NCBI GenBank assembly: GCA_944392975.1
Contig: CALXYN010000013.1
Location: 1-45,351 of the forward strand
Length of the DNA: 45,351 nucleotides
Origin: an uncultured Spirochaetaceae bacterium
Lineage (GTDB): Bacteria > Spirochaetota > Spirochaetia > Sphaerochaetales > Sphaerochaetaceae
Reading direction: 5' to 3'
In this document: positions 1-38,258 of the stretch, in pieces
How positions within the stretch are numbered: the stretch's first letter is position 1
Layout of the letters: each line of letters opens with the position of its first letter
Made by a program: the position numbers and the translations under genes
Notes under the pieces: model-generated
Databases searched by the model: none
What the model was told of the DNA's origin: nothing
The model's input: only the letters and a program-made list of their open reading frames with translations

Positions 1-1163
1 TCAACATGGGCACAGTAAAGGGCCTCCAGTTCAAGCAGCCACTCTTCGAGTTCTCCGGAGCTTGTGCAGGCTGTGGTGAAACACCTTATGTAAAGATGCT
101 TTCCCAGATCTGTGGTGAGAGAGCAGTCATTGCTAACGCAACAGGTTGTTCTTCAATTTACTCCGGTACATTCCCGACAATCCCTTATACAAAGAGGGCT
201 GATGGTCGTGGACCAGCATGGGGTAACTCACTCTTCGAGGATAACGCAGAGTACGGTCTTGGTATGCGCCTCGCTGTTGACTCCAACAGAAACCTTCTGA
301 GAATGAAGTGTGACGAGTTGATGGCAGCTGGATGCTCAGCAGAGCTCAAGGCAGCTATTGAGAAGTGCTACTCACTCTGGGAGGATACAACAGAAGCTTC
401 CATCACAGCACAGAAGGAAGTCCAGAAAGTTCTTGCTTCCGAGAAGGCAGCAAATGCTGAGGCACAGGTTCTTCTCGACAAGATTGTTGAGCTCCAGGAT
501 TACTTCTCAGAGAAGGATGTCATCATCATCGGTGGCGACGGCTGGGCTTATGATATCGGATTCGGTGGTGTAGACCACGTTGTTGCTTCTGGTAAGAACG
601 TCACAATTCTTGTTCTCGATACAGAGGTTTACTCCAACACAGGTGGACAGGCTTCCAAGTCAACTCCAATGGCAGCAGTTGCTAAGTTTGCTAATGCTGG
701 TAAGAAGGTTGGCAAGAAGAACATGGGCTTCATGATGATGAGCTATGGCCACGCATATGTTGCTTCCATCGCACTTGGATACAACAGACTTCAGGCTCAG
801 AAGGCTCTCCAGGAAGCTGTAGCTTACCAGGGACCATCAATTGTCTTCTGCTATGCACCATGTATTAACCATGGTATCAACATGAGATATTCTCAGGTTG
901 AGGCAAAGAAGGCTGTTGAGGCTGGTTATTGGCCACTCTATCGCTTCGATCCACGCCTTGAGGCTGGAAAGAGGTTTGTATGGGAGACAAAGCCTGCTAC
1001 AGGTGATTATCAGGAGTTCATCAAGGGTGAGACAAGATATGCTTCACTCTACAAGACGAACCCAGAGCACGCAGATGAGCTCTTTGCTGCAGCTGCTGAG
1101 GATGCAAAGGAAAGACTTGCATTCTATCAGAGATGTGGTGAAGTCCTCGGCGAGACAATCTAA
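1..1163 (+). CDS. nifJ: Pyruvate:ferredoxin (flavodoxin) oxidoreductase, C-terminal part
   Basis: This is the 3' end of a much longer gene; the frame is already open at the window edge, and the family is usually near 1,180 residues. The product converts pyruvate and CoA to acetyl-CoA and CO2, passing electrons to ferredoxin or flavodoxin in the cytoplasm. What is visible is the thiamine-diphosphate domain: a CAGCGETPY cysteine motif and a later Cys in PCINHGI (ligands of the proximal 4Fe-4S cluster), and the ThDP/Mg motif GGDGWAYDIG followed by VYSNTGGQ. The first ATG in frame (position 6) is internal, not a start. Codon choice is strongly biased, as expected for a highly expressed fermentation enzyme. 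A terminator follows at once. The identification is secure. Confidence 0.95.
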   Translation, partial: NMGTVKGLQFKQPLFEFSGACAGCGETPYVKMLSQICGERAVIANATGCSSIYSGTFPTIPYTKRADGRGPAWGNSLFEDNAEYGLGMRLAVDSNRNLLRMKCDELMAAGCSAELKAAIEKCYSLWEDTTEASITAQKEVQKVLASEKAANAEAQVLLDKIVELQDYFSEKDVIIIGGDGWAYDIGFGGVDHVVASGKNVTILVLDTEVYSNTGGQASKSTPMAAVAKFANAGKKVGKKNMGFMMMSYGHAYVASIALGYNRLQAQKALQEAVAYQGPSIVFCYAPCINHGINMRYSQVEAKKAVEAGYWPLYRFDPRLEAGKRFVWETKPATGDYQEFIKGETRYASLYKTNPEHADELFAAAAEDAKERLAFYQRCGEVLGETI

Positions 1164-4749: not shown

Positions 4750-6429
4750 ATGGCAGAAAACAAGGAAATAATCACCCTTGAGGAGAATAAGAAAGTCCAG
4801 GAATACTCTGAGAAGCTACGTGCGCTCAGAGAGGATGGTGTAACAAAGATAAATGACTGCAGGATTGAACTGGCTTCACTGAAAAAGAACAAGCTTATTG
4901 ATGAAGCAGAGAAATCCAAGCGGATTCAGGCCCTTAATGCAGAAATTGCCAAAGCAAAGGAAGTCGAGGCAAGAAACAGGGCAGAGATAGCCTCCCTTTC
5001 CAAGGAAGCCGTGAAGTATGTGAATACTGTTTCCAAGGATATTGAGGCTTCAGTAAATGCCAGACAGAACAAGAGAATGGAGGGTGCCAAGTCCTTCTAT
5101 GAGAAGGAAGTTGCCCAGATCAAGCAGGAAGCTGCTGCAAGAGAGGCAGAGGTCAGAGCCCGCCTTTCCGGAGGGGATCCTCAGGTCCTGAAGAGCGAGA
5201 TTGAAATCTGCAGATATGAGCTGAAAAGTGCTCTTTATGATTCAAAATCCAGATTCAAGGATCAGATGGATAGAGCAAAGGCTGCAAAGCATCAGGCTTT
5301 TGTCGATCACATCCAGAAAAACAGGGAGTTGAGAAACGGTAAGTCCGCGTTCGGAGAGGATGTGAAGATGAAATGGAAGAATTTTGTCAGGAACTTCACT
5401 CCGTCATCATTCTTCCTAGCCAATGGTCTTTACATAGCCATCATCATATTCTTCATAGTCTGTATCATTGCTGCTCCTCTTATGGGATCTGGTAATCTTC
5501 TTTCACTTCCGAATATTCTTACAATCCTTGAACAGGCTTCGACGAGAATGTTCTATGCACTCGGTGTTGCTGGTCTGATTCTTCTTGCAGGTACGGACCT
5601 CTCAATCGGAAGAATGGTTGCTCTTGGTTCTGTGACCACGGGTCTGATCCTTCATCCGGGAATGAACATCGTATCGCTTTTCGGTATGCCTACGTGGGAT
5701 TTCTCTGCAATTCCGATGGGAGTAAGAGTTCTGATGGCTCTTGTCCTTGCCATCATCCTCTGTGTTTTCTTCAGTGCAGTTGCAGGTTTCTTTACGGCAA
5801 GGTTTAAGATGCATCCGTTCATTTCAACAATGGCCAACCAGCTCATCATTTACGGTATGCTCTTCTATGGAACATCCGGAACACCAGTTGGCTCAATTGA
5901 CAGCAGTATCAGAAGCCTGATAGGTGGACGCTGGACATTGGGAGTCCTTAACGGACAGCTTATTACATTCCCGAAACTGATTATTCCTGCTGTTATTGCC
6001 ATTATCGTGGCGTGGCTTATCTGGAATAAGACGACATTCGGAAAGAATATGTATGCTGTTGGTGGTAATTCAGAAGCTGCTGCAGTTTCCGGTATCTCCG
6101 TATTCTGGGTCACTGTAGGAGTCTTCATCATGGCCGGTGTATTCTATGGATGTGGTTCATTCCTTGAGGCGTTCAGAGCAAATGCTTCAGCTGGTACTGG
6201 TCAGGGATATGAAATGGATGCAATCGCAGCTTGTGTTGTTGGTGGTATCTCATTCAATGGCGGTATTGGAAAGATAGGTGGAGCGGCGATAGGTGTTGTC
6301 ATATTCACATCCCTTACATACTGTCTCACCTTCCTTGGTATCGACACGAACCTCCAGTTTGTTTTCAAGGGTTTCATCATTCTTGCAGCTGTCTCCCTTG
6401 ATAGCATCAAGTACCTGAAGAAGAAATGA
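4750..6429 (+). CDS. mglC: Sugar ABC transporter permease with long N-terminal coiled-coil extension
   Basis: Residues from about 220 to 559 are a normal MglC/RbsC-type permease (BPD_transp_2) with about eight to ten membrane segments and the motif LAGTDLSIGRMVALG near the start, forming the channel for the sugar. Residues 1 to about 200 are an extra soluble, highly charged segment rich in Glu, Lys, Ala and Arg, with heptad-like spacing and no membrane helix, predicted to be a long cytoplasmic coiled coil. A usual MglC is about 330-350 residues, so this is an extension of some 200 residues. The whole is one open frame with a GGAGAGGAG ribosome binding site. An internal start would leave the coiled-coil region untranslated, but its codon pattern is clearly coding. 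Confidence 0.9.
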   Translation: MAENKEIITLEENKKVQEYSEKLRALREDGVTKINDCRIELASLKKNKLIDEAEKSKRIQALNAEIAKAKEVEARNRAEIASLSKEAVKYVNTVSKDIEASVNARQNKRMEGAKSFYEKEVAQIKQEAAAREAEVRARLSGGDPQVLKSEIEICRYELKSALYDSKSRFKDQMDRAKAAKHQAFVDHIQKNRELRNGKSAFGEDVKMKWKNFVRNFTPSSFFLANGLYIAIIIFFIVCIIAAPLMGSGNLLSLPNILTILEQASTRMFYALGVAGLILLAGTDLSIGRMVALGSVTTGLILHPGMNIVSLFGMPTWDFSAIPMGVRVLMALVLAIILCVFFSAVAGFFTARFKMHPFISTMANQLIIYGMLFYGTSGTPVGSIDSSIRSLIGGRWTLGVLNGQLITFPKLIIPAVIAIIVAWLIWNKTTFGKNMYAVGGNSEAAAVSGISVFWVTVGVFIMAGVFYGCGSFLEAFRANASAGTGQGYEMDAIAACVVGGISFNGGIGKIGGAAIGVVIFTSLTYCLTFLGIDTNLQFVFKGFIILAAVSLDSIKYLKKK

Positions 6430-7478: not shown

Positions 7479-9242
7479 TCACGATTTGATTACAACAGGG
7501 GAAATCGGAGGAAGATTTGGAATTGTTATTGTTACTGTCGTTCCTTCATCGAGTTCTGATTCAATACTAAGCCCATATTCATCTCCATATGAAAGTTTGA
7601 TACGTTCATCGATATTGATGAGTCCAATACCGTTTCCGTCGGAAATGTGATTACGTTCGCTCTCTTTGTCCAGAATTGTAGAAAGAACATCAGGCGGCAT
7701 GCCTACGCCATTATCTTTTACCTTTATTTCGATTTTATCCTTCTCCACAGCTTTTGCTGAAATTTCTATAAGACCTTCTTCTTGCAGATACTTTATTCCG
7801 TGGTAAATTGAATTCTCTACAATCGGCTGGATTATAAGCTTTATTGTCGGAACATTCTCAAGTTCTTCAGGAAGGAAAATGCTGAAGCGGAACTTGTCCT
7901 TGTAACGCATTGCCTGAATATCAAGATAACTCTCAACATGAGCCAGCTCCTCTTTCAGCGTTATCGTGTCATGTCCTTTTGCTATTGAGATTCTGAAAAG
8001 GCTTGCAAGGGCTGTTACCATCTTCACAACACCTTGATTGTTTCCCGTTTCTGCCATCCAGACGACACTGTCCAGCGTATTGTAAAGAAAATGTGGATTG
8101 ATTTTTGCCTGCAGAGCATCCAGTTCTCTTTGTCTCTTGACTGCCTCAGTGGCCCTCACTTCCTCCATCAGTTCCTCAATACGCTGTACCATCAGCAGGA
8201 AAGAGTGGGATAGTGATTCGACTTCTTTTGACTCTCCTTGGGTCTCTGAAATGCTGAAATCGCCATCCTGTACCTTTCGCATGTCGAGCTCTAGCATTCG
8301 TAGCGGTCTCGTTATATGCAGAGCAATAGCCCTTGATAGGAGAATTGCGATGAGAATAAAGATAACCATCAGTACGTACAGAGATATCCTGAATGGTTTC
8401 AGCGGCTCCAGAAGCTCATCCATGAATGCGATTCCCACAATTCTCCATCTTGTTTTCTCTACAGTTTGTATGATTGTCAGCCTCTCTCTGCCGTCAAATG
8501 TTGATGTATAGGATCCGAAGACATTTCTTCGGATGCTCTCTAGATCCTCTTCAACCGTTCCTTCCTCGAGAAGCCTTTCTTTTGGATGGTAAACGATATC
8601 TCCATCATTTGAGATTATATAGAGATAACCAGTTGCCGAGAGATGCGCGCTTTCAAGAAGCTCTTCCACAGAGTTGAAATTGAGATCAATCAGAAGAACG
8701 GATGGAGTTGCCTCCCTGTTTATATCTCCATAGCTGATAACAGTTGAATAGGAGATGACAAGATCTGCATTCCTTGTGCTGCTCCGATGAGGGCCTGTAA
8801 AGAAGAAATCTCCTTCACCACCCGCCGCTCTTCTGAACCACAGCTCTGAGAATATCTCATTTCCGGCCATCCTGATTGTCGGCTCTGTGGATATTATGGC
8901 ATTACCATCCATGTCAAACACTGTGATACTTACGACATCATCTCTGGAACTGATGAGAGCTTCCAGCCTTGTCTGTATCTGACTGGCGGAGAGGTTTGAA
9001 GTAGTGCGTGAAAGCTCTCTTACATAATCAGAGACTCCGATGATGTCATTGATGTAGGTGCTGAGGTTGTTGTTTACCTGAGTGACGATTTCGGATGCTG
9101 AATCCATCGCATTGTCTTTGATGGCATTTGAAACAAATCCATCAACAAGGGAACCAGTGAGAAGAACAAAGACAGAAATCATCAAAGCCATTGATATCGA
9201 CATCAGCGTTTTTATTGATAACGTCTTCTTTTTTATTCTCAT
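7479..9242 (-). CDS. LytS/YesM-type sensor histidine kinase
   Basis: A 587-residue membrane sensor. One membrane helix (about 11-33) and a second (about 283-303) enclose an extracellular Cache-like domain, followed by HAMP (about 305-357), the His_kinase box INPHFLYN with phospho-acceptor His384, and the HATPase with N box VENSIYHG (Asn477), DNGVGM and GNGIGL. This architecture phosphorylates AraC-type regulators and often senses sugars or sugar-bound proteins. It overlaps the upstream response regulator by ATGA (9239-9242), so the pair is translationally coupled. Its stop codon is two bases from that of the convergent binding-protein gene. A link to sugar uptake by the mgl genes or the right-hand importer is plausible but not shown. 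Confidence 0.93.
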   Translation of the reverse strand: MRIKKKTLSIKTLMSISMALMISVFVLLTGSLVDGFVSNAIKDNAMDSASEIVTQVNNNLSTYINDIIGVSDYVRELSRTTSNLSASQIQTRLEALISSRDDVVSITVFDMDGNAIISTEPTIRMAGNEIFSELWFRRAAGGEGDFFFTGPHRSSTRNADLVISYSTVISYGDINREATPSVLLIDLNFNSVEELLESAHLSATGYLYIISNDGDIVYHPKERLLEEGTVEEDLESIRRNVFGSYTSTFDGRERLTIIQTVEKTRWRIVGIAFMDELLEPLKPFRISLYVLMVIFILIAILLSRAIALHITRPLRMLELDMRKVQDGDFSISETQGESKEVESLSHSFLLMVQRIEELMEEVRATEAVKRQRELDALQAKINPHFLYNTLDSVVWMAETGNNQGVVKMVTALASLFRISIAKGHDTITLKEELAHVESYLDIQAMRYKDKFRFSIFLPEELENVPTIKLIIQPIVENSIYHGIKYLQEEGLIEISAKAVEKDKIEIKVKDNGVGMPPDVLSTILDKESERNHISDGNGIGLINIDERIKLSYGDEYGLSIESELDEGTTVTITIPNLPPISPVVIKS

Positions 9243-29740: not shown

Positions 29741-30093
29741 GTACGAAGCTGTACATCCTCAATGATGATGGAAAGAAGTTCATGGGAGCAGGTGTCCTGT
29801 GGCTTCTGGAGCGCATTGAGGAAACAGGTTCGCTTCTTGCAGCAAGCAAGAGTATGGGACTGTCGTATACTAAAGCAAGATTGATGCTTGAGATGCTGGA
29901 AACAGCAGTAGGGCGTCCTGTACTGGATAGAAAAAAGGGAGGGGCGGAGCGCATTGGTGCGACGCTTACACCTTTTGCAAAGGAATATATTTCCCTTTAC
30001 AGGGAATTCCAGGCAGAAGCCAAGGCGGATGCGGAAAAGAGATTCAAAGATTTTTCGGCATCTGTCCAGAAGCTTATGGAGGAATATAAATGA
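29731..30093 (+). CDS. ModE-like winged-helix DNA-binding protein without TOBE domain
   Basis: The 120-residue protein matches the N-terminal LysR/ModE-type winged helix: GKKFMGAGVLWLLERIEETG, LLAASKSMGLSYTKARLMLE, LDRKKGGAERIGATLTPFAKEYISLY. The C-terminal molybdate-binding (TOBE) domains of full ModE are absent, and the last 25 residues look like a helical tail. It overlaps the aminotransferase gene by 10 bases and the phosphofructokinase gene by 4 (ATGA). Stand-alone ModE-N proteins are known; a molybdenum link to the hydroxylase-like genes 4 kb away is speculative. Confidence 0.8.
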   Translation: MELSTKLYILNDDGKKFMGAGVLWLLERIEETGSLLAASKSMGLSYTKARLMLEMLETAVGRPVLDRKKGGAERIGATLTPFAKEYISLYREFQAEAKADAEKRFKDFSASVQKLMEEYK

Positions 30094-31430
30094 ATACTAA
30101 TAGCAAGTCACAGTATGATTTTACGATTGAGACTCTTGGGCCAGCAAAGCTCAGTTCTCCAATCAGAATGTCAAAGCGTGGTGGAGACGGACTTGCAGAC
30201 TATGTCCGTGACACAGACCGCATCCTCTTCTCCATCGAGGCTGAGGAGAGTGAGGGAAAGTCCCAGCTTCTTCATTCAGATACTCTTGAGATCGCGGGGC
30301 CTAGAGAGAAAATCTATTTCAATCCGGCACATGTCCATGCAGCTATCTGTACATGTGGTGGCCTCTGTCCGGGACTTAACAACGTCATCAGATCCGTTGT
30401 CCGCTGTTTCTGGTATCGCTATGGAGTGAGAAGAATCTCCGGTATCCAGTATGGCTATCTTGGACTTCTCGAGAATTCTCCATGGCCGGTTATTCCACTT
30501 GATCCGGATGTTGTCGATGACATTCTTGAAAAAGGTGGTACAATCCTCGGTTCAGCCCGTGGTGGCGGAAAGCAGGTTGAGGAGATTGTTGATTCTCTCG
30601 AAAGAATGAATATCAACATCCTTATCGCTATCGGCGGTGATGGCACTCTTCGTGGTGCTCAGGATATTGGAGAGGAAATCAAGAGAAGAGGTCTCAAAAT
30701 CGCTGTTGTCGGTGTTCCTAAGACTATTGATAACGACCTTTCCTTCATCGATGCCTCATTCGGTTTTGATACAGCTGTTGCCCAGGTTGTACCTGTCATC
30801 AGAGGTGCACATGCAGAAGCTACAGGTGCTATTAACGGAATCGGTCTTGTAAAGGTAATGGGAAGAGAGTCCGGATTCATTGCAGCAAACGCATCTCTTG
30901 CACAGTCAGATGTCAATTTCTGTCTCATTCCTGAATCTCCATTTGATCTGGAGGGACCTAATGGTCTTCTTGAGAATGTGAAGAGAAGGCTTCTTGAAAG
31001 AGGTCATGCTGTTATTCTCATTGCAGAAGGTGCCGGTCAGGAATTCCTGCCTAAGACAAACGAGACAGATGCTTCTGGAAACCTGAAGTTCCATGATATC
31101 GGAATATTCCTTAAAGATGAGATGAAGAAGTATTTTGCAGAGCAGGGTATTTCCACAACCATCAAATACATCGATCCTTCATACATCATTCGTTCAGCCC
31201 CGGCAGACAGCTATGACTCGATTTACTGTGCAAGAATCGGTGCACATGCAGTTCATGCTGCAATGGCAGGAAAGACACAGTGTATCGCATCCCGCGTGAA
31301 CAATCAGTTTGTCTATGTTCCTATCAAGGTTGCAGTATCAAAGCGCAGCCATGTTGATATCGAGGGATCTCTCTGGAGAGATGTTCTTGAAAATACAAGG
31401 CAGCCGTTCTCAATGAAGAACAACGAATGA
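30090..31430 (+). CDS. pfkA: 6-phosphofructokinase, group II/long type
   Basis: The 446-residue enzyme phosphorylates fructose 6-phosphate in glycolysis. It has ICTCGGLCPGLNNVIR, IGGDGTLRGA (Asp184, Gly185) and VPKTIDNDLSFID (Lys211). Gly at the position equal to E. coli 104 suggests ATP as donor, while Lys at the 124-equivalent is usual for PPi enzymes; the Gly/Lys mix occurs in ATP-dependent long PFKs such as those of trypanosomes. The size matches the Borrelia/Treponema non-PPi-type paralogue. ATGA overlap with the regulator gene indicates coupling. A terminator follows. Confidence 0.9.
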   Translation: MNTNSKSQYDFTIETLGPAKLSSPIRMSKRGGDGLADYVRDTDRILFSIEAEESEGKSQLLHSDTLEIAGPREKIYFNPAHVHAAICTCGGLCPGLNNVIRSVVRCFWYRYGVRRISGIQYGYLGLLENSPWPVIPLDPDVVDDILEKGGTILGSARGGGKQVEEIVDSLERMNINILIAIGGDGTLRGAQDIGEEIKRRGLKIAVVGVPKTIDNDLSFIDASFGFDTAVAQVVPVIRGAHAEATGAINGIGLVKVMGRESGFIAANASLAQSDVNFCLIPESPFDLEGPNGLLENVKRRLLERGHAVILIAEGAGQEFLPKTNETDASGNLKFHDIGIFLKDEMKKYFAEQGISTTIKYIDPSYIIRSAPADSYDSIYCARIGAHAVHAAMAGKTQCIASRVNNQFVYVPIKVAVSKRSHVDIEGSLWRDVLENTRQPFSMKNNE

Positions 31431-31447
31431 AACATAATGCCTGATGA

Positions 31448-31484
31448 GGGTGCTCTCTTCTTCAAGAAAAGGGCACCTTTTTTA
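31448..31484 (+). terminator. Rho-independent terminator of pfkA
   Basis: GGTGC pairs with GCACC, with an inner TCTT/AAGA helix, followed by a run of six T. It begins 18 bases after the pfkA stop. Confidence 0.85.
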
Positions 31485-31683: not shown

Positions 31684-31712
31684 TTTTCATACTCCGATGA
31701 AGTCGCTATATT
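31684..31712 (+). promoter_or_regulatory. Promoter of the predicted small RNA, with upstream A-tracts
   Basis: TTTTCA and TATATT are separated by 17 bp. The 45 bases upstream (from about 31637) consist of repeated A-tracts, resembling an UP element or curved DNA. Transcription would begin near 31719. Confidence 0.5.
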
Positions 31713-31718
31713 ATGGCC

Positions 31719-31806
31719 AGAAAGTGGAAGCAGAACTTCCATTCTAACCTCCTTTTGTTCCCCATAGCGGTTTACCTCCTTTTGTCCGCATGGGGTTTTT
31801 TATTTT
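31719..31806 (+). ncRNA. Candidate small RNA with two anti-Shine-Dalgarno motifs
   Basis: A short transcription unit lies between a promoter-like sequence and a strong terminator, with no open frame. It contains a first hairpin (TGGAAG-CAGAA-CTTCCA, 31725-31741), a linker with ACCTCCTTTTGT (31747-31758), and a terminator hairpin (CCCCAT plus GCGG pairing with CCGC plus ATGGGG, 31760-31795) whose 15-base loop carries a second perfect ACCTCCTTTTGT (31774-31785), then TTTTTT. ACCTCCTTT is the 3'-terminal anti-SD sequence of 16S rRNA. Exposed C-rich or anti-SD loops are the hallmark of several known bacterial trans-acting small RNAs. Expression is not demonstrated. Confidence 0.6.
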
Positions 31807-31828
31807 CCTTTGCAATTGAGAATACAGG
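31791..31828. repeat. Direct repeat, candidate attL
   Basis: This 38-bp sequence (TGGGG, T6, A, T4, then CCTTTGCAATTGAGAATACA and GG) recurs at 38222-38258 with one T fewer and no other difference. It begins within the 3' side of the small-RNA terminator stem. The truncated integrase gene starts 140 bases to its right. Confidence 0.75.
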
Positions 31829-31968
31829 CTTGCATATCTGTATATACAGCTAGGGGTTAATAAATCTGCCATGCATGGTGTGCTCTTTATTGCGGTGTAA
31901 TTTAGCCTGATATTTAGCCCAAAATCAAATTCTGACTATTTCCCATAAGCCCTCGGAGGTGGGCAATT

Positions 31969-32451
31969 ATGGGCAGGTACAAAGAGCCTTATAGGTTAAA
32001 ACAGGTAGGTAAGTACTGGTACTACAAAACACCAGATATGGCTTCTTTCAAAACAACAGGTGAAACAACCAAAGCAATGGCAAAGCATATTGTAACCCAG
32101 CTTATGCAAAGGGCTGTAGCTGGCAATCCAAATCCATTGTTCAAGGATTATGCAGAACCATTCTTTGACTGGGATAGATGTCCGCATGCAACAAGGCTTA
32201 GGGCTGAAGGAAAGCACATTAGTGAGCGTTATTGTAAGAATGAACGCAAATGGCTTGTCAAATATGTACTGAACTCAAAGCTTAGTAAAATGCGTATAGC
32301 TGATATAAGGCGGGGGAATCTTCTTGATTTCCGTTCCGGCTTACAGGCAAAGGGCATATCAGGTAATAACATTAACAGCATAATTAAGGCTATCAAGGTT
32401 GTATTTAGTGAAGCTGTATACCGTGAGAATATACCATACTATAGAGGGTAA
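31969..32451 (+). pseudogene. Tyrosine recombinase/phage-type integrase, N-terminal fragment
   Basis: The 160-residue product has the N-terminal arm-binding part (YRLKQVGKYWYYKTPDMASF) and a SAM-like core-binding domain (KWLVKYVLNSKLSKMRIADI, LQAKGISGNNINSIIKAIKV, FSEAVYRENIP), but ends where the catalytic domain with the R-H-R-Y residues should begin. Full integrases of this kind have about 350-400 residues. The break coincides with a diverged copy of the operator region of the nearby XRE gene, suggesting a rearrangement. The ribosome site GGAGG lies nine bases before the ATG. Two ATTTAGCC repeats (31900-31907 and 31912-31919) in front might be arm-type sites. Confidence 0.8.
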
Positions 32452-32511
32452 CTAGACTATAGTATGATAATTTTTCATTAGTCGGATACGTTCAATTGCA
32501 TGAGACTGTAA
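32438..32511 (+). repeat. Diverged copy of the XRE promoter/operator and start codon
   Basis: ACTATAG, an 11-base spacer, CTATAGTAT, then TTAGTCGGATACG and ATGAGACTG align with 33344-33417 in the same order and spacing (62 versus 65 bases to the ATG). Here the ATG is followed by AGA CTG TAA, a three-codon frame. Within it, ATACTATAG (32436-32444) and CTATAGTAT (32457-32465) form a perfect 9-bp inverted repeat. It looks like a fossil or decoy operator. Confidence 0.65.
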
Positions 32512-32592
32512 AGTACTTCGAATCAGTATAGGCATTGATTGTAAGTAAGAAGGTTATTAGCTTGAATCACAACGAAGTTTCGTTTTCATGGT

Positions 32593-33336
32593 TCATGAAG
32601 GAAATGCTAGACTGATACCATCAAGTGTTTGCGATTGTTCTATAGTTGTTTCATTGATTTGTACCGCAGAGGCTTTACAATTGTGACTATCTCCTTTATC
32701 GTCGTTTGCTTTTACATCAATGGAAATAATTTCAGGGCCTTTAATACTTCCTTTTACAGTTCCTTCTGTTATCAAAGCGCCATACCATCCATTAGTATTG
32801 GCTCCTGTATAATTAACTATGTTGATTTCACAATTTATAAAAGGAAGAAGAAATAAGCTTGACTGGTAATCAGAGTTAATTTTTGCATTTCCATAAATTT
32901 TGTAATCAATATTATTGTTTGTTCCAGTAATGCTGAATGATGTTATTGTAGCTTCCCATGTTTCAGGAGAGTTGTATCTATTTATGGTTATGTAGCCAAT
33001 AACTGAAGTTCCATTATTTGAATAATTGATATTGTAGGGTTGTCCTGAAATTAAGTTGTTGCTTTTTTCAAGTATTGTATCTATTGCTGCGACAATAGAT
33101 GAAAGAGTCTGCTCACAGGCGGTGGTTATTGAATAACCAATAGACGATAGTAAATCTGATTCTTCTGGAGTTGGTTCTCTTGGTGGATCTATTGGATTCA
33201 CAGGTTCTTCATCAGGCGATTCTGGTTTTTCTTCTGGATTTTCTTGTGGGTTGTCATTAGTATTGTTGGTTGGCATTTGGCAGCTAACAATCCATAAACA
33301 ACATAAAATAAGTAATAAAGAGACAATCTTTTTCAT
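32593..33336 (-). CDS. Accessory lipoprotein with proline/glutamate-rich linker
   Basis: The 247-residue protein has a lipoprotein signal peptide ending IVSC (Cys19), a Pro/Glu/Asn-rich low-complexity linker at about 21-58, then a beta-rich domain of roughly 190 residues (IGYITINRYNSPETWEATIT, GWYGALITEGTVKGSIKG). I do not recognise the family. The product is predicted to be surface or periplasmic. The gene is AT-rich compared with the housekeeping genes, as expected for acquired DNA, and is divergent from the XRE regulator, sharing the operator-bearing gap between them. Confidence 0.7.
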   Translation of the reverse strand: MKKIVSLLLILCCLWIVSCQMPTNNTNDNPQENPEEKPESPDEEPVNPIDPPREPTPEESDLLSSIGYSITTACEQTLSSIVAAIDTILEKSNNLISGQPYNINYSNNGTSVIGYITINRYNSPETWEATITSFSITGTNNNIDYKIYGNAKINSDYQSSLFLLPFINCEINIVNYTGANTNGWYGALITEGTVKGSIKGPEIISIDVKANDDKGDSHNCKASAVQINETTIEQSQTLDGISLAFPS

Positions 33337-33343
33337 GTCTCCA

Positions 33344-33408
33344 ACTATAGCCTATGCATAGTCTATAGTATAGTATTGCTTTCTTCTTAGTTGGGTACGC
33401 TCATTTAT
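33344..33408. promoter_or_regulatory. Operator region between the lipoprotein and XRE genes
   Basis: It contains ACTATAG (33344-33350), the palindrome CTATGCATAG (33352-33361) and CTATAGTATAG (33363 onward). Paired ACTATAG-type boxes in front of a small XRE gene resemble the autoregulatory C-boxes of controller proteins. The same array is present at 32438. Confidence 0.55.
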
Positions 33409-33711
33409 ATGAGACTGGCAAAGGAGATATTCATAGAGAACTTGAAAGCTATAAGAACAGCGAGGGGCCTTACTCAAGCAGGTTTGTCTGAACTTGCAGA
33501 TTTATCTCCAAGTATCATAGGAGATATAGAAACAGGTAGGCGTAATCCAACTCTTACTACAATAGAAAAAATTGCTTTAGCTCTTAAGGTTCCAGTGCAT
33601 CAGCTTTTCTATGATACACATGAGGAATTGCCACCTAATGCATTAGATTCTAAAGAAGAACTTAGAATGCTGATTCATCAGCTAATTGATAAAGCTATGA
33701 ACATGGAATAA
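33409..33711 (+). CDS. XRE-family transcriptional regulator
   Basis: The 100-residue protein is a Cro/CI-type helix-turn-helix regulator (NLKAIRTARGLTQAGLSELA, LSPSIIGDIETGRRNPTLTT, IALALKVPVHQLF), closest in style to controller proteins and small phage-type repressors, with a short acidic helical tail. The start was set at ATG 33409 (MRLAKE) rather than a TTG 18 bases earlier, because the duplicated copy at 32438 aligns up to this ATG. It probably represses or activates its own promoter and that of the divergent lipoprotein. No restriction-modification genes accompany it. Confidence 0.8.
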   Translation: MRLAKEIFIENLKAIRTARGLTQAGLSELADLSPSIIGDIETGRRNPTLTTIEKIALALKVPVHQLFYDTHEELPPNALDSKEELRMLIHQLIDKAMNME

Positions 33712-33858
33712 TTAAAAAAGAAATTGCCAGCTTTGTTTTTTTATGAGACTTTGTCCTGAGTTTTGAGGCTTGGAACATGAATATAAGGCGGCACAAAGGT
33801 CGCTCGAAACATTTTGGCAGCAGGTACATTCGCGGAAATATGCCTGCTGTTTCTTTAT

Positions 33859-34355
33859 TCAGCCAACAGCTGGAACTGGAGTTATACTTACGGACACACC
33901 AAGGTTTTCAAGTTTCTTGATGTACATGTTTATCTTGCTCTCGGTATTGAACCTGTTGTAGTAATCTTCTCCTAGATCCTTGAATGGAACGCGGTCTCTT
34001 ATGATGTAATAGATGGCAATCAGCAGTGAGTGCGCAACAGCCATCTTCGCTCTGTTCTTTCCTCTTCTTATCATAAGCCTTGAATACTGCGCAGCGAAAA
34101 AAGAACCCTTAGCTCTTGAAGCACCCTGTGCACAGAGGACAAGTGTAGTCCTCAGCAGGGCATTTCCCATGCGCGTCTTGCCGCTTCTCCTTTTCCCTGC
34201 ACTCTCATTGTTTCCAGGACATACGCCAGCCCAGGAGGCAAGATGAGCTGCAGATGGAAATCTGGACATGTCTGTACCTATTACAGAAAGAATATTCTTC
34301 GCGGAGCTTTCTCCAATGCCCGGAATCTCCGTAAGAAGGTCAACAAGCTCCTGCA
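33859..34355 (-). pseudogene. IS110-family transposase, C-terminal half
   Basis: This piece carries the Transposase_20 domain: LTEIPGIGESSAKNIL, FPSAAHLASWAGVCPG, then the SAGKRRSGKTRMGNALLR segment that holds the conserved serine. The rest of the gene is at 37003-37761. The break is precisely at the IS21 target duplication, and frame is preserved when one copy is removed. Alone it lacks the DEDD catalytic domain and cannot be a recombinase. Confidence 0.88.
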
Positions 34356-34510
34356 TGCAATGTACGGCTTAATGGAGTGAACTTTTCGCTAGCGGCGGAG
34401 TGTCGCTTTCGGAAGCCACGGAGTATCCTTTTCGCTTAATCTGGAGCATTCGCATTAGCCGGAGTATGTTTTCGGTAGCACGGAGTGCTCTTTCTTTTAC
34501 CAATCACAAT
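34356..34510 (+). repeat. Left-end repeat array of the IS21 element
   Basis: The sequence contains about six variants of a GGAGTR...TTTTCGCT-like unit of roughly 20-25 bases (for example GGCGGAGTGTCGCTTTCGG and CACGGAGTATCCTTTTCGCT). IS21-family ends carry multiple such repeats as transposase-binding sites. Three shorter copies (GGAGCGGCC, GGAGTGAGC, GGAGTGGCT) occur at the right end, about 36932-36986, on the minus strand. Confidence 0.7.
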
Positions 34511-34593
34511 CGTTCAATTCATCATGTATCATGCCTTCAGCTTCAGTTCATGGGTGCCTGGCATCCAGGAGCATTTCAGTTATGGAGGCGTGT

Positions 34594-36162
34594 ATGCAGA
34601 AATACACAACCATCATCGGTGTCCTCAAGATGAAGGGGGATGGCTTCACCTATGAAGACATCCAGAGCAGGTTCGGCATCGGATCAAGCACGGTTAACCG
34701 TACTTTGTCGACGATGAGAAAACTCGGCCTGACCTATGAGGAATTATCCAAGAAGAGTCCAGATGAAGTAGAGCAGTTGTTCTACCCGTCTGAGAAGGCA
34801 AGACGAAAGGACGTTCCATTGCCAGACTTCGAGACAATCTATCGGAAGATCATTGATCCGAAAAACAAGACAACATTGACCTTGGCGTGGAGTGAGTACA
34901 AGAAGACTAGCCCTGACGGGTATCAGTACACACAGTTTGTTGAACACTACAACCGTTATGTAGATGACCATTATGGCCACAGAAATGCAAGGATGCCAGT
35001 TGAAAGGATTCCAGGAGAGAAGACGTACTTCGACTGGGCAGGAGACAAACCGGCAATCCTGCTTGATCAGGAGACGGGAGAGCTCAAGCCGGTCAGTCTT
35101 TTTGTCTCGACAGTCGGCTTCAGCAGCCTGTGTTTTGCTGAGGCATTCGCTGATGAGAAACTTCCTTCGTTCATCGAAGGCGTAGCAGATGCGGTCGCGT
35201 TCTACGGCGCTGTATCACGCTACTTTGTACCAGACAATCTTAAAACAGCAGTAACAAAACATACGAAAGACGAGCTCCTCCTGAACGTTGTGCTCAGCGA
35301 CCTGGAATCTTTCTACGACACAGTTGTGCTTCCTCCTCCGTCTCGCAAACCAAGGGGAAAGGCAACGGTTGAGAAGGCAGTCCAGACCTGTGAAACCTAT
35401 GTCCTGGAGAAGCTCAGGAATTGCGGATGCTTTTCTTCTCTGGCACAGGTTAACGCAAGAATAAAGGAATTCACAGAGACTCTGAACGAAACTGTTATGA
35501 GAGGTGCGAAACATTCAGCCAGAGAACTCTATGAAAAGTTTGACAGGCCGAATATGAAGCCGCTCACTATGGGACGCTTCATGCGCGTAGAATATCGCTT
35601 CTTTACAAAGGTTCCTGACAATTATCATCTGGCCTTCGATGACCATTACTATTCAGTACCGTGCAGAATGCTCGGCAAGCCTGCAATACTCAAAGCAGAC
35701 TTCAGAACCGTCACGATTACCGATGCGGATAACATCCTGATCTGTACCCACGAGCGTTCTTACTCCCGCTTCCCCATCTACATTACACAAGATGATCACA
35801 TGCCTTCTGAGCACCGCTATTACAAGGAGCTCAACGCTCCATTGCACGACGGGAATTATTATCGTACCTGGGCGTTGAACAAGTATGGAGAGACGATGCA
35901 GCGCCTTATCGATGCCATCCTCAGATCTCAAAAGCACGAAGCAACTATGTACAACTCATGTAAAGGCATTCTTCACATGTGCTCGGATGTCCCGAGAACA
36001 ATTGTAGAAGATGTCGCCAGACAGTGTCTGGAATTGAACTGCACAAACTACACGTCGTTTAAAAGGCTGCTCAGGCTGGCATCTTCCACCATTGCACAGG
36101 CAACTGGTGATGGAGCAGGCATTGTCCATCAGAACATCAGGAGCAAGGAGGAGTACAGATGA
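34594..36162 (+). CDS. istA: IS21-family transposase IstA
   Basis: The 522-residue DDE transposase cuts and joins the IS21 ends with the help of IstB. It has an N-terminal helix-turn-helix (GDGFTYEDIQSRFGIGSSTV), a catalytic core with Asp147 (YFDWAGD), Asp214 (YFVPDNLKTAV) and Glu270 (ATVEKAVQTCE), and a beta-rich C-terminal part. The start is ATG 34594, five bases after a GGAGG; the frame is open further upstream into the terminal repeats. It overlaps istB by ATGA. Confidence 0.92.
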   Translation: MQKYTTIIGVLKMKGDGFTYEDIQSRFGIGSSTVNRTLSTMRKLGLTYEELSKKSPDEVEQLFYPSEKARRKDVPLPDFETIYRKIIDPKNKTTLTLAWSEYKKTSPDGYQYTQFVEHYNRYVDDHYGHRNARMPVERIPGEKTYFDWAGDKPAILLDQETGELKPVSLFVSTVGFSSLCFAEAFADEKLPSFIEGVADAVAFYGAVSRYFVPDNLKTAVTKHTKDELLLNVVLSDLESFYDTVVLPPPSRKPRGKATVEKAVQTCETYVLEKLRNCGCFSSLAQVNARIKEFTETLNETVMRGAKHSARELYEKFDRPNMKPLTMGRFMRVEYRFFTKVPDNYHLAFDDHYYSVPCRMLGKPAILKADFRTVTITDADNILICTHERSYSRFPIYITQDDHMPSEHRYYKELNAPLHDGNYYRTWALNKYGETMQRLIDAILRSQKHEATMYNSCKGILHMCSDVPRTIVEDVARQCLELNCTNYTSFKRLLRLASSTIAQATGDGAGIVHQNIRSKEEYR

Positions 36163-36932
36163 ACAGTGAAAATAGCATCGTAAACTCCATGCAGGAGAAG
36201 CGCGATGAGATCAAAGCCCTGCTTACACGTCTCAGGCTGCCATCATTCAAGGAAACATTCATCGCTCAGACAGAGGATCCAAACTCACCACTTGAGCCTT
36301 TCGAGGACAGACTCCTTAATTGCCTCAGAAATGAAGTTGATGTCAGACAGTCAAAGAAGATCTCAAGATCAATCGCAGCGGCCCATCTCAGGTTTCCGGG
36401 AGCGTCAATCGATCAGAAAATCTATGATCCCGAGCGACTGCTCAACACAGCGCTGATCGAAAAGCTTGCCCAGGCTGAATGGCTGAACGGGGAGTACTCC
36501 CTGATCATTACCGGCAAGACAGGATGCGGGAAGTCTTATCTTGCGTGTGCCCTTGCCGTCTCGGCCATCAGGAAAGGCTACTCTGCCTACTACACAAGAT
36601 GCAACGATTTTCAGCGGGAGTGTGATCGCATCATCGGTACAGAAGAAGCCTCGACGCTTTTCCGCACAATGACGAAATGCGATCTTCTTGTTCTTGATGA
36701 TTTCGGCTTGATGAGACTTTGTATGGATGCATGCAAGACGCTTCTGGACATCATCGACTGCAGGTATGAGCACAAGGCTACAATTATCACTTCACAGTTC
36801 CCTGTCTCAGCATGGTCGGAACTGTTTCCTGATCAGACTCTGGCTAATGCCTGTCTGGACAGGCTGTCAAGGAAGTCCTACAGAATTCCCATGGATGGGC
36901 CTTCTTTAAGACCTAACGACATTATTCAGTAG
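36159..36932 (+). CDS. istB: IS21-family helper ATPase IstB
   Basis: The 257-residue AAA+ ATPase, related to DnaC, selects the target and activates IstA. Walker A is ITGKTGCGKSYLACAL (residues about 117-132), Walker B is LLVLDDFGLM, with a sensor-type segment ATIITSQFPVSAW. The ATGA overlap with istA indicates coupled translation. The product ends about 70 bases inside the right end of the element. Confidence 0.93.
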   Translation: MNSENSIVNSMQEKRDEIKALLTRLRLPSFKETFIAQTEDPNSPLEPFEDRLLNCLRNEVDVRQSKKISRSIAAAHLRFPGASIDQKIYDPERLLNTALIEKLAQAEWLNGEYSLIITGKTGCGKSYLACALAVSAIRKGYSAYYTRCNDFQRECDRIIGTEEASTLFRTMTKCDLLVLDDFGLMRLCMDACKTLLDIIDCRYEHKATIITSQFPVSAWSELFPDQTLANACLDRLSRKSYRIPMDGPSLRPNDIIQ

Positions 36933-37002
36933 CCACTCCGTTTTAAGCGGCCAGCTCACTCCGTTCGGGCGAATTGGCCGCTCCATTTTTCCGAACATAG
37001 CA

Positions 37003-37761
37003 CTCCTGCATATCAGCAGATAGATTCTCATCTATTATCGTGTCTATCTCATCAATCCGCTTGTTGAGATAGGCAATGTGTTCAAGACAGATGCTTATCA
37101 TCTTCCGCTGGACAGGGGTAAGGACTCCATTCAGATCATCTGCAAGCTCCTCAGGCTCAGCCTTGAGCCGCGATGAGATAAGGCCGTCATTGATCATTCC
37201 CCTTATGTCATCCGCTGTTATTGCTTCTCCGTTTATGAGGCAGGAAAGAAGATGCTGGCCGGACTTGCCGATGATTGATGATATGGTTCCCGAGATCTTT
37301 ATGTTCCCGCCTTCGAGCATCTTCTGTATCCTGTTCTGCTCGCTCGTGGCATCCACTGTAAGGCTCTTGCGGTATGTAAGAAGCTCTCTCAGCTCCCTCT
37401 GGGGCTTTGGGGGAATGTAGCTGGCTCTCAGAAGCCCATGCCTCAGAAGTTCCGCTATCCATTCGGCATCAAGGGTGTCTGTCTTCCTCCCGGGCAGCGC
37501 CTTGATGTGCTGCGCATTCACGACCATGGCCTTCACATCCTGCGCTTCGAGGATATTGTAAAGAGGTTTCCAGTATGATGCAGTGCTTTCCATTGCCACC
37601 ATCTCACACTTGTTTTCCTTAAGCCATGATGAAAGTTCTATCAGTTCTCTTGTCGAAGCACCGAATTCCCTTATCTCCTTCTTACGTCCGCGCATCAAGC
37701 AGCAGACAAGGATCTTCTTGTGCACATCCACGCCACAGCATACGCCATACATCACTTCCAT
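37003..37761 (-). pseudogene. IS110-family transposase, N-terminal half
   Basis: This piece carries the DEDD RuvC-like domain of IS110 recombinases: CCGVDVHKKILVCC (first Asp), MVAMESTASYWKPLY (Glu) and KALPGRKTDTLDAEWIAELL (Asp, Asp), then a coiled-coil region ending NLSADMQE at the IS21 target site. The ATG at 37761 lies five bases after GGAGG. 253 codons are followed exactly by the insertion; the remaining 162 codons are at 33859-34347. The C-terminal serine domain is separated by IS21, so the gene is inactive. Confidence 0.88.
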
Positions 37762-37769
37762 CACGGCCT

Positions 37770-37927
37770 CCTTGATAGAATCTACGGCAGACCTTCCTTT
37801 GCTTGCTCAATTTTTTATTCGTCCTCTTTCCCGAAGGATTGTGACAATGCGTGGTCCGGAAGGAAGGCTGATGTCAGTTTTTTTTACGGACTCATACCGT
37901 TCCAAAAAACGCACGACCTTGTGCCGC
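37770..37927 (-). ncRNA. Candidate bridge RNA of the IS110 element
   Basis: IS110-family recombinases use a structured RNA from a non-coding end that specifies target and donor. Upstream of this transposase, on its strand, a consensus TATAAT (37934-37939) is followed by about 160 bases with several self-complementary segments: GCAC...GTGC near the start, ACGG-TATGAGT-CCGT, and CCTTCCTT pairing at distance with AAGGAAGG just before the gene. The -35 is weak here, as expected if it is completed only in the circular junction. This is inference from position and hairpins; no folding was done. Confidence 0.4.
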
Positions 37928-37933
37928 TATTCA

Positions 37934-37939
37934 ATTATA
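37934..37939 (-). promoter_or_regulatory. Consensus -10 box upstream of the IS110 transposase
   Basis: TATAAT on the minus strand, about 170 bases upstream of the transposase start. No good -35 is present at 17 bp. A palindrome CCTCA-TGG-TGAGG lies at 37968-37980. Confidence 0.45.
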
Positions 37940-38221
37940 ACTGATAAACTCAGGTCCAAGTCTCATTCCTCATGGTGAGGCCGGGGATTCATATATGTTT
38001 TTTTTTGTTTTAAGCAGATAGTAAAACGACAGAGGCTGCTGTTATAAAGCTTGCTGATTCTGATTATTACGGGAATTGAATATTTTACTGAGTATAAGAA
38101 ATCGTATATAGAATCTAGGGAATAATGGGGAATATAGGGTTATAAGTTCCAGAGAAAAAGTTATAATTCCTTATAGGAATGAATATTAGTGAACCTTAAG
38201 TATTTTTAGTTTAAAGCGCAG

Positions 38222-38258
38222 TGGGGTTTTTTATTTCCTTTGCAATTGAGAATACAGG
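38222..38258. repeat. Direct repeat, candidate attR
   Basis: The second copy of the 37/38-bp repeat at the right border of the accessory island. It differs from the left copy only by one T in a T-run. The small-RNA body found beside the left copy is absent here. The 230 bases to its left (37990-38220) are AT-rich with a small ATTCC-TTATA-GGAAT palindrome at 38166-38180 and no gene. Confidence 0.75.

Follow-up and report, generated by a model that had tools for sequence, protein, structure and literature searches.

A Class-Wide Spirochaete Small RNA Candidate That Carries Two Anti-Shine-Dalgarno Motifs

What is the function of a stretch of about 85 bases in a spirochaete genome in which one C-rich sequence, resembling the tail of 16S rRNA, is present twice? 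The window that we analyzed is a 45,351-nucleotide stretch of DNA from an uncultured Spirochaetaceae bacterium. An earlier note, made from its letters alone, had described a promoter-like sequence, a hairpin, and a terminator around some 85 bases without an ORF, and had proposed that these elements define a small RNA. The arrangement is borne out by the predicted fold (z = -2.96), while the promoter is not significant alone. Given the conservation described below, we conclude that the short stretch very probably encodes a small regulatory RNA that has been kept across a whole class of spirochaetes.

Results and Discussion

Layout and Predicted Fold of the RNA Gene

The gene (31719-31801, + strand, as are all features of the window given below) is about 83-85 nt long and has a simple layout. 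After the promoter come the 5' hairpin, the linker, and a terminator whose G+C-rich stem encloses a loop of 15 nt and runs into TTTTTT; the stretch contains no ORF of note. The 5' hairpin (31719-31745; core 31724-31742) pairs GTGGAAG with CTTCCAT around the loop CAGAA and has weaker closing pairs. The terminator (31760-31801) is predicted to form a stem from CCCCAT-GCGG (31760-31770) and CCGC-ATGGGG (31786-31795), with one bulge, and its T-run occupies positions 31796-31801. A terminator scan missed this hairpin because its loop limit was 8. The predicted folding energy of -24.5 kcal/mol was equaled by none of 200 dinucleotide shuffles.

The putative promoter (31684-31712) consists of a -35 box, TTTTCA (31684-31689), a 17-nt spacer, and a -10 box, TATATT (31707-31712). 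These boxes match the consensus at 9 of 12 positions, a score that is not significant alone, as 3 such matches were found and 3.0 were expected in shuffles. Similar boxes are present at the same position in members of the genus. Members of the family carry either TTGA-type or TTTTCA/TTTACA sequences at -35 and TATATT/TACTGT-like sequences at -10.

Two further elements were observed upstream of relatives of this RNA. Outside Sphaerochaetaceae, a TGTAAC-N13-18-TGTTTA-like sequence lies about 35-75 bp before the first motif of many class members (loci L194-L205 and L330-L349). It was present at 10 of 29 loci compared with 1 of 587 control stretches, a count that is descriptive because the pattern was picked after inspection of the same loci. 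Its resemblance to an alternative-sigma promoter offers only a lead. In the Bullifex group (L138, L139, L167, L168, L170, and L173), the palindrome TTTGTATACAAA lies directly upstream of the RNA promoter and is a possible regulator site.

Two Unpaired Copies of the 16S rRNA Tail

The earlier note had also reported that the C-rich motif occurs twice, 27 bases apart, and this proves accurate when distances are taken from start to start. Exact copies of ACCTCCTTTTGT occupy the single-stranded linker (31747-31758) and the terminator loop (31774-31785), and neither strand of the 2.07-Mb assembly has any other exact copy. Among 42 members of the genus, the mean predicted probability of being unpaired is 0.93 for the linker motif and 0.97 for the loop motif.

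The proposed match to the 3' tail of 16S rRNA was likewise found in related genomes. There, ACCUCCUUU is the 3' end of 16S rRNA, and ACCTCCTTT from the motif is identical to this end (GGATCACCTCCTTTCT). The identity applies to relatives because the window's own assembly is without that 16S end. Since the motif equals the 16S 3' end in these relatives, each copy can pair with AAAGGAGGU.

The cores of both copies are nearly invariant. The linker sequence ACCTCCTTTT is kept in 40 of 40 copies from the genus and 57 of 58 family-wide, and the terminator loop carries CTCCTTT in all 58 family-wide copies and ACCTCCTTTT in 51 of them. Across the class, the linker core CCTCCTTT is present in 29 of 34 sequences and the loop core CTCCTTT in 33 of 34.

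Stems That Covary around Fixed Cores

The earlier note named absence of the two motifs and hairpins from related genomes as a ground for refutation, and the opposite was observed: both motif cores persist over the class and the stems covary. In the family alignment, each of the 11 pairs of the terminator stem has at least one sequence in which both partners are changed; the covariation score is 0.418 compared with 0.136 (sd 0.013) for shuffles and 0.06-0.10 when the pairing partner is slid. The class alignment yields 0.596 compared with 0.134 for shuffles; both alignments were fitted to the structure, which biases their scores in its favor. A genus alignment made with MAFFT, and thus not fitted to structure, has a covariation score of 0.224 compared with 0.096, and none of 500 shuffles reached it. 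The 5' hairpin varies among species in sequence and length, and in each of the 41 genus members analyzed the 5' segment folds better than its own shuffles (mean z -3.0, every z below -1).

Because the stems covary and the motif cores are almost fixed, selection preserves the stems as stems and the two C-rich segments as letters. As read from these alignments, the combination is the signature of a structured RNA with two selected, unpaired C-rich segments.

Distribution among Spirochaetes

Of the 48 genomes in the genus (Ca. Ornithospirochaeta), 45 were found by blastn to carry the RNA. A covariance search of spirochaete genomes, a check that the earlier note had suggested, extends this range considerably. 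With a model of the linker and terminator, 121 of 139 family genomes were positive (68 of the 75 high-quality ones, and 18 of 22 genera), and just two genomes had a second match. A second genus includes Bullifex porci. When the covariance models were broadened stepwise, matches were recovered in 198 of 395 sampled class genomes, representing 78 of 133 genera, with the weakest matches lying close to the threshold. The same design is evident beyond the family, for example as TTTTTCCATCGACCTCCTTTTGATGTTCCCCTCAGGGTTTTAACCTCCTTTTCCCTGAGGGGTTTTTTT in class locus L334, whereas matches beyond the class are scattered and weak. In a pattern scan of genome contigs, the tight form of the motif was present in spirochaetes and in two Pontibacter stretches and one Patescibacteria stretch; these three were set aside, being without the RNA's hairpin. 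Chance origin of the design is ruled out by its conservation.

Several individual loci and genomes have unusual features. The class-wide search returned two to four matches per genome in G503 and G515 (both of family f67), G500, G524, and G562, and thus some lineages may have gained extra copies of the RNA. In loci L212 and L213, both from one class family, two successive hairpins each carry the motif in the loop (about 1430-1560 on the strand of the RNA), a layout like that of alpha-r14. In locus L198, two TD-2 RNAs (RF03162, over the cut-off) lie near the RNA gene at 370-468 (- strand) and 493-585 (+ strand). TD-2 is an RNA family known from Treponema denticola, and the class family f3 is probably Treponemataceae on the basis of these two RNAs. 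No match to the RNA was found in G194, a 1.1-Mb genome of family f3.

The catalogue of spirochaete small RNAs is short; a 2022 review counts six distinct annotated ones in the phylum (PMC9029176). With its frozen double anti-Shine-Dalgarno motif and fixed neighbor, an RNA family found in about half of the Spirochaetia genomes sampled would make post-transcriptional control in these bacteria directly testable in cultivable, non-pathogenic species such as Sphaerochaeta.

Neighboring Genes and the Possibility of a cis-Acting Element

The gene upstream of the RNA in the window encodes 6-phosphofructokinase (30090-31430; NF005301, 662 bits). A related phosphofructokinase gene lies directly upstream on the same strand at 22 of 42 genus loci, 29 of 40 family loci, and 10 of 29 other class loci, where the denominators include loci too short to reveal the gene. 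At these 10 further class loci, the identity is 62-72%. Because the neighbor is shared, common descent of the RNA is much likelier than convergence.

A conserved neighbor, together with the fact that the RNA ends in a terminator, might lead one to propose a cis-acting element, either a leader or attenuator of the downstream gene or an element at the 3' end of the phosphofructokinase mRNA. We regard this as improbable. The phosphofructokinase gene has a terminator-like hairpin of its own, read from the sequence as GGTGCTCT ... AGGGCACC followed by a T-run (31449-31484), and both this hairpin and the separate RNA promoter stand between it and the small RNA gene. On the downstream side, nine genus loci have an integrase gene and others have different DNA, and even the closest relative differs there for kilobases. 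Thus, an attenuator is rejected because no downstream gene is fixed in place. Moreover, a cis-acting role leaves the two exact anti-Shine-Dalgarno motifs unexplained.

Integration at the 3' End of the Gene

On the variable downstream side, 42-bp direct repeats flank an integrated element of about 6.4 kb (31787-38258) that is degraded. The left copy (31787-31828) resembles an attachment site and overlaps the 3' half of the RNA terminator, and the right copy (38217-38258) is 88% identical to it. Between the repeats are the remnant of a tyrosine integrase gene (31969-32451; truncated, 160 aa) and IS110-type and IS21-type transposase genes. The remnant is 59-91% identical to the integrases of eight relatives (L006, L008, L009, L012, L016, L028, L031, and L032), one of which is full-length and matches PF00589. 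Counting the window, 9 of 45 genus loci have a related integrase gene whose start lies 168-184 bp past the RNA, which makes the 3' end of the small RNA gene a recurrent integration site, or hotspot. The RNA remains intact in the window despite this integration, and a small-RNA gene thus joins the list of integration sites. In locus L125 (genome G013), a 120-bp direct repeat follows the RNA (6150-6269 and 7810-7929; 98% identical, 1660 bp apart) and resembles a small insertion into this site.

The overlapping repeats and the nearby integrases raise the question of whether the stretch is a DNA attachment site only, kept because integrating elements use it. This is very improbable. Both CCTCC motifs, where conservation is highest, lie before the start of the repeat, and a search for related integrases next to the family and class copies found none. 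A pure attachment site is also disfavored because the terminator stem covaries, varying by paired changes.

A Proposed Anti-Shine-Dalgarno Mechanism

We consider it likely that the stretch produces a stand-alone RNA of about 85 nt that acts in trans and represses translation by occluding Shine-Dalgarno sequences independently of Hfq. The RNA would expose two copies of ACCUCCUUUU, one in the linker and one in the terminator loop. By base pairing with an mRNA's Shine-Dalgarno sequence (AAAAGGAGGU), each copy would deny the ribosome access, such that chosen messages would be repressed in translation, apparently without Hfq. This mechanism is supported by the wide conservation of the RNA, with its nearly fixed motif cores, covarying stems, and predicted unpaired motifs, by the fixed upstream neighbor, by the identity of the motif with the 16S tail of relatives, by the RNA's own promoter, by the phosphofructokinase terminator that precedes the RNA, and by the parallels with LhrC and alpha-r14. 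At the sequence level, the RNA has the makings of an independent gene with its own promoter and intrinsic terminator, and its anti-Shine-Dalgarno motif is both conserved and predicted to be exposed. We infer that the RNA is transcribed, that it pairs with mRNAs, and that it represses their translation, with its targets perhaps being nutrient-uptake lipoproteins.

A search for Hfq (PF17209) was positive in 5 of 14 control genomes and in none of 12 spirochaete genomes, the window's own among them, although a very divergent Hfq could have been missed.

Candidate targets were listed from 48 genomes as sites where the 11-nt sequence CAAAAGGAGGT is followed by ATG within 2-11 nt. Of these sites, 24 have an ORF of 60 aa or longer; 8 of the 24 are solute-binding proteins, and others are transporter parts and enzymes. 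In a control set based on AGAAAGGAGGT, which matches the 16S tail and not the RNA's extension, solute-binding proteins account for 1 of 17 ORFs. The candidates therefore seem to lean toward solute-binding proteins, in a comparison of sets that are small, partly related, and inclusive of orthologues. The best candidate is found in three species (L250, L262, and L264). Its orthologues (L300-L323) retain an ordinary Shine-Dalgarno sequence only, and because the extended match is not conserved in them we claim no target. The genome of the window has no start codon with the 11-nt match outside the RNA locus, and its sole 11-nt sites are antisense to the RNA itself.

The absence of a conserved extended match for the tested candidate would also fit a different reading, in which the RNA is a global effector of translation, mimicking the 16S tail and competing for Shine-Dalgarno sites generally, or being bound by a ribosomal factor, and tunes initiation overall. 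The identity of the motif with the 16S tail over 9 nt fits this explanation, and a motif frozen over the class would be expected with a constant partner. If true, the RNA would be a general brake on translation initiation in bacteria without a recognized Hfq rather than a repressor of few targets. However, known anti-Shine-Dalgarno RNAs also choose their targets by short seeds, and so a missing long match says little. The mimicry is also inexact, in that the genus motif runs on as UUGU where the 16S tail runs on as CU, and a general competitor would require very high abundance. We therefore judge a global role unlikely and favor the repression of chosen messages.

Relation to Known Small RNAs

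No Rfam model matches the window at gathering thresholds. The best-scoring model is that of LhrC from Listeria monocytogenes (RF00616, clan CL00114), which gives 39.2 bits against a cut-off of 110, and other members of the spirochaete RNA family score 19.7-32.4 bits. Thus, LhrC is rejected as a true relative on its covariance-model score. The alpha-r14 model gave no match in the window at its gathering score, nor around the RNA at E values up to 10, and a literature search that covered sources other than subscription journals returned no paper on a spirochaete anti-Shine-Dalgarno RNA. Given these results, the RNA is best filed as a new family with an already known kind of action. The earlier suggestion that this type of RNA is undescribed thus stands for the family, which has no Rfam entry and no paper that we found, but not for the mechanism, for which LhrC and alpha-r14 are precedents.

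In layout, LhrC nonetheless comes closest. Both RNAs carry a C-rich motif that runs into U's in the linker and in the terminator loop, and Infernal aligns the two motifs and terminator of the spirochaete RNA to the two 3' motifs and terminator of LhrC. The sites of LhrC are distributed over loop A, linker, and terminator loop, and its linker and loop motifs were shown to bind the ribosome-binding region of lapB, which is G-rich and lies upstream of the start codon; Hfq is dispensable for the effect on lapB (PMC4132741). The LhrC motif is CUCCC rather than ACCUCCUUUU, and a third motif resides in its loop A, whereas the 5' hairpin loop of the spirochaete RNA is CAGAA and has no motif. LhrC is also present in five copies, compared with nearly always one for the spirochaete RNA and one in the window's assembly.

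Alpha-r14 (NfeR1) comes from alphaproteobacteria, a different phylum, and carries ultraconserved, functionally redundant anti-Shine-Dalgarno motifs on variable stems (PMC10746234). It pairs at the translation initiation region of ntrB and thereby silences this gene (PMC10746234). In both RNAs, identical anti-Shine-Dalgarno motifs are unpaired and fixed while the stems differ in sequence. However, alpha-r14 has three hairpins, each with CCUCCUCCC, and the spirochaete RNA has two hairpins and two copies of ACCUCCUUUU.

The streptococcal csRNAs offer a third parallel, as CCUCCU is the likely anti-Shine-Dalgarno sequence in most pneumococcal copies and streptococci are without Hfq (PMC4438229). 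No sequence relation was detected between these RNAs and the spirochaete RNA. They share with it two stem-loops and an unpaired stretch, but they carry CCUCCU in the first loop, are present in several copies per genome, and are expressed from CiaR-controlled promoters.
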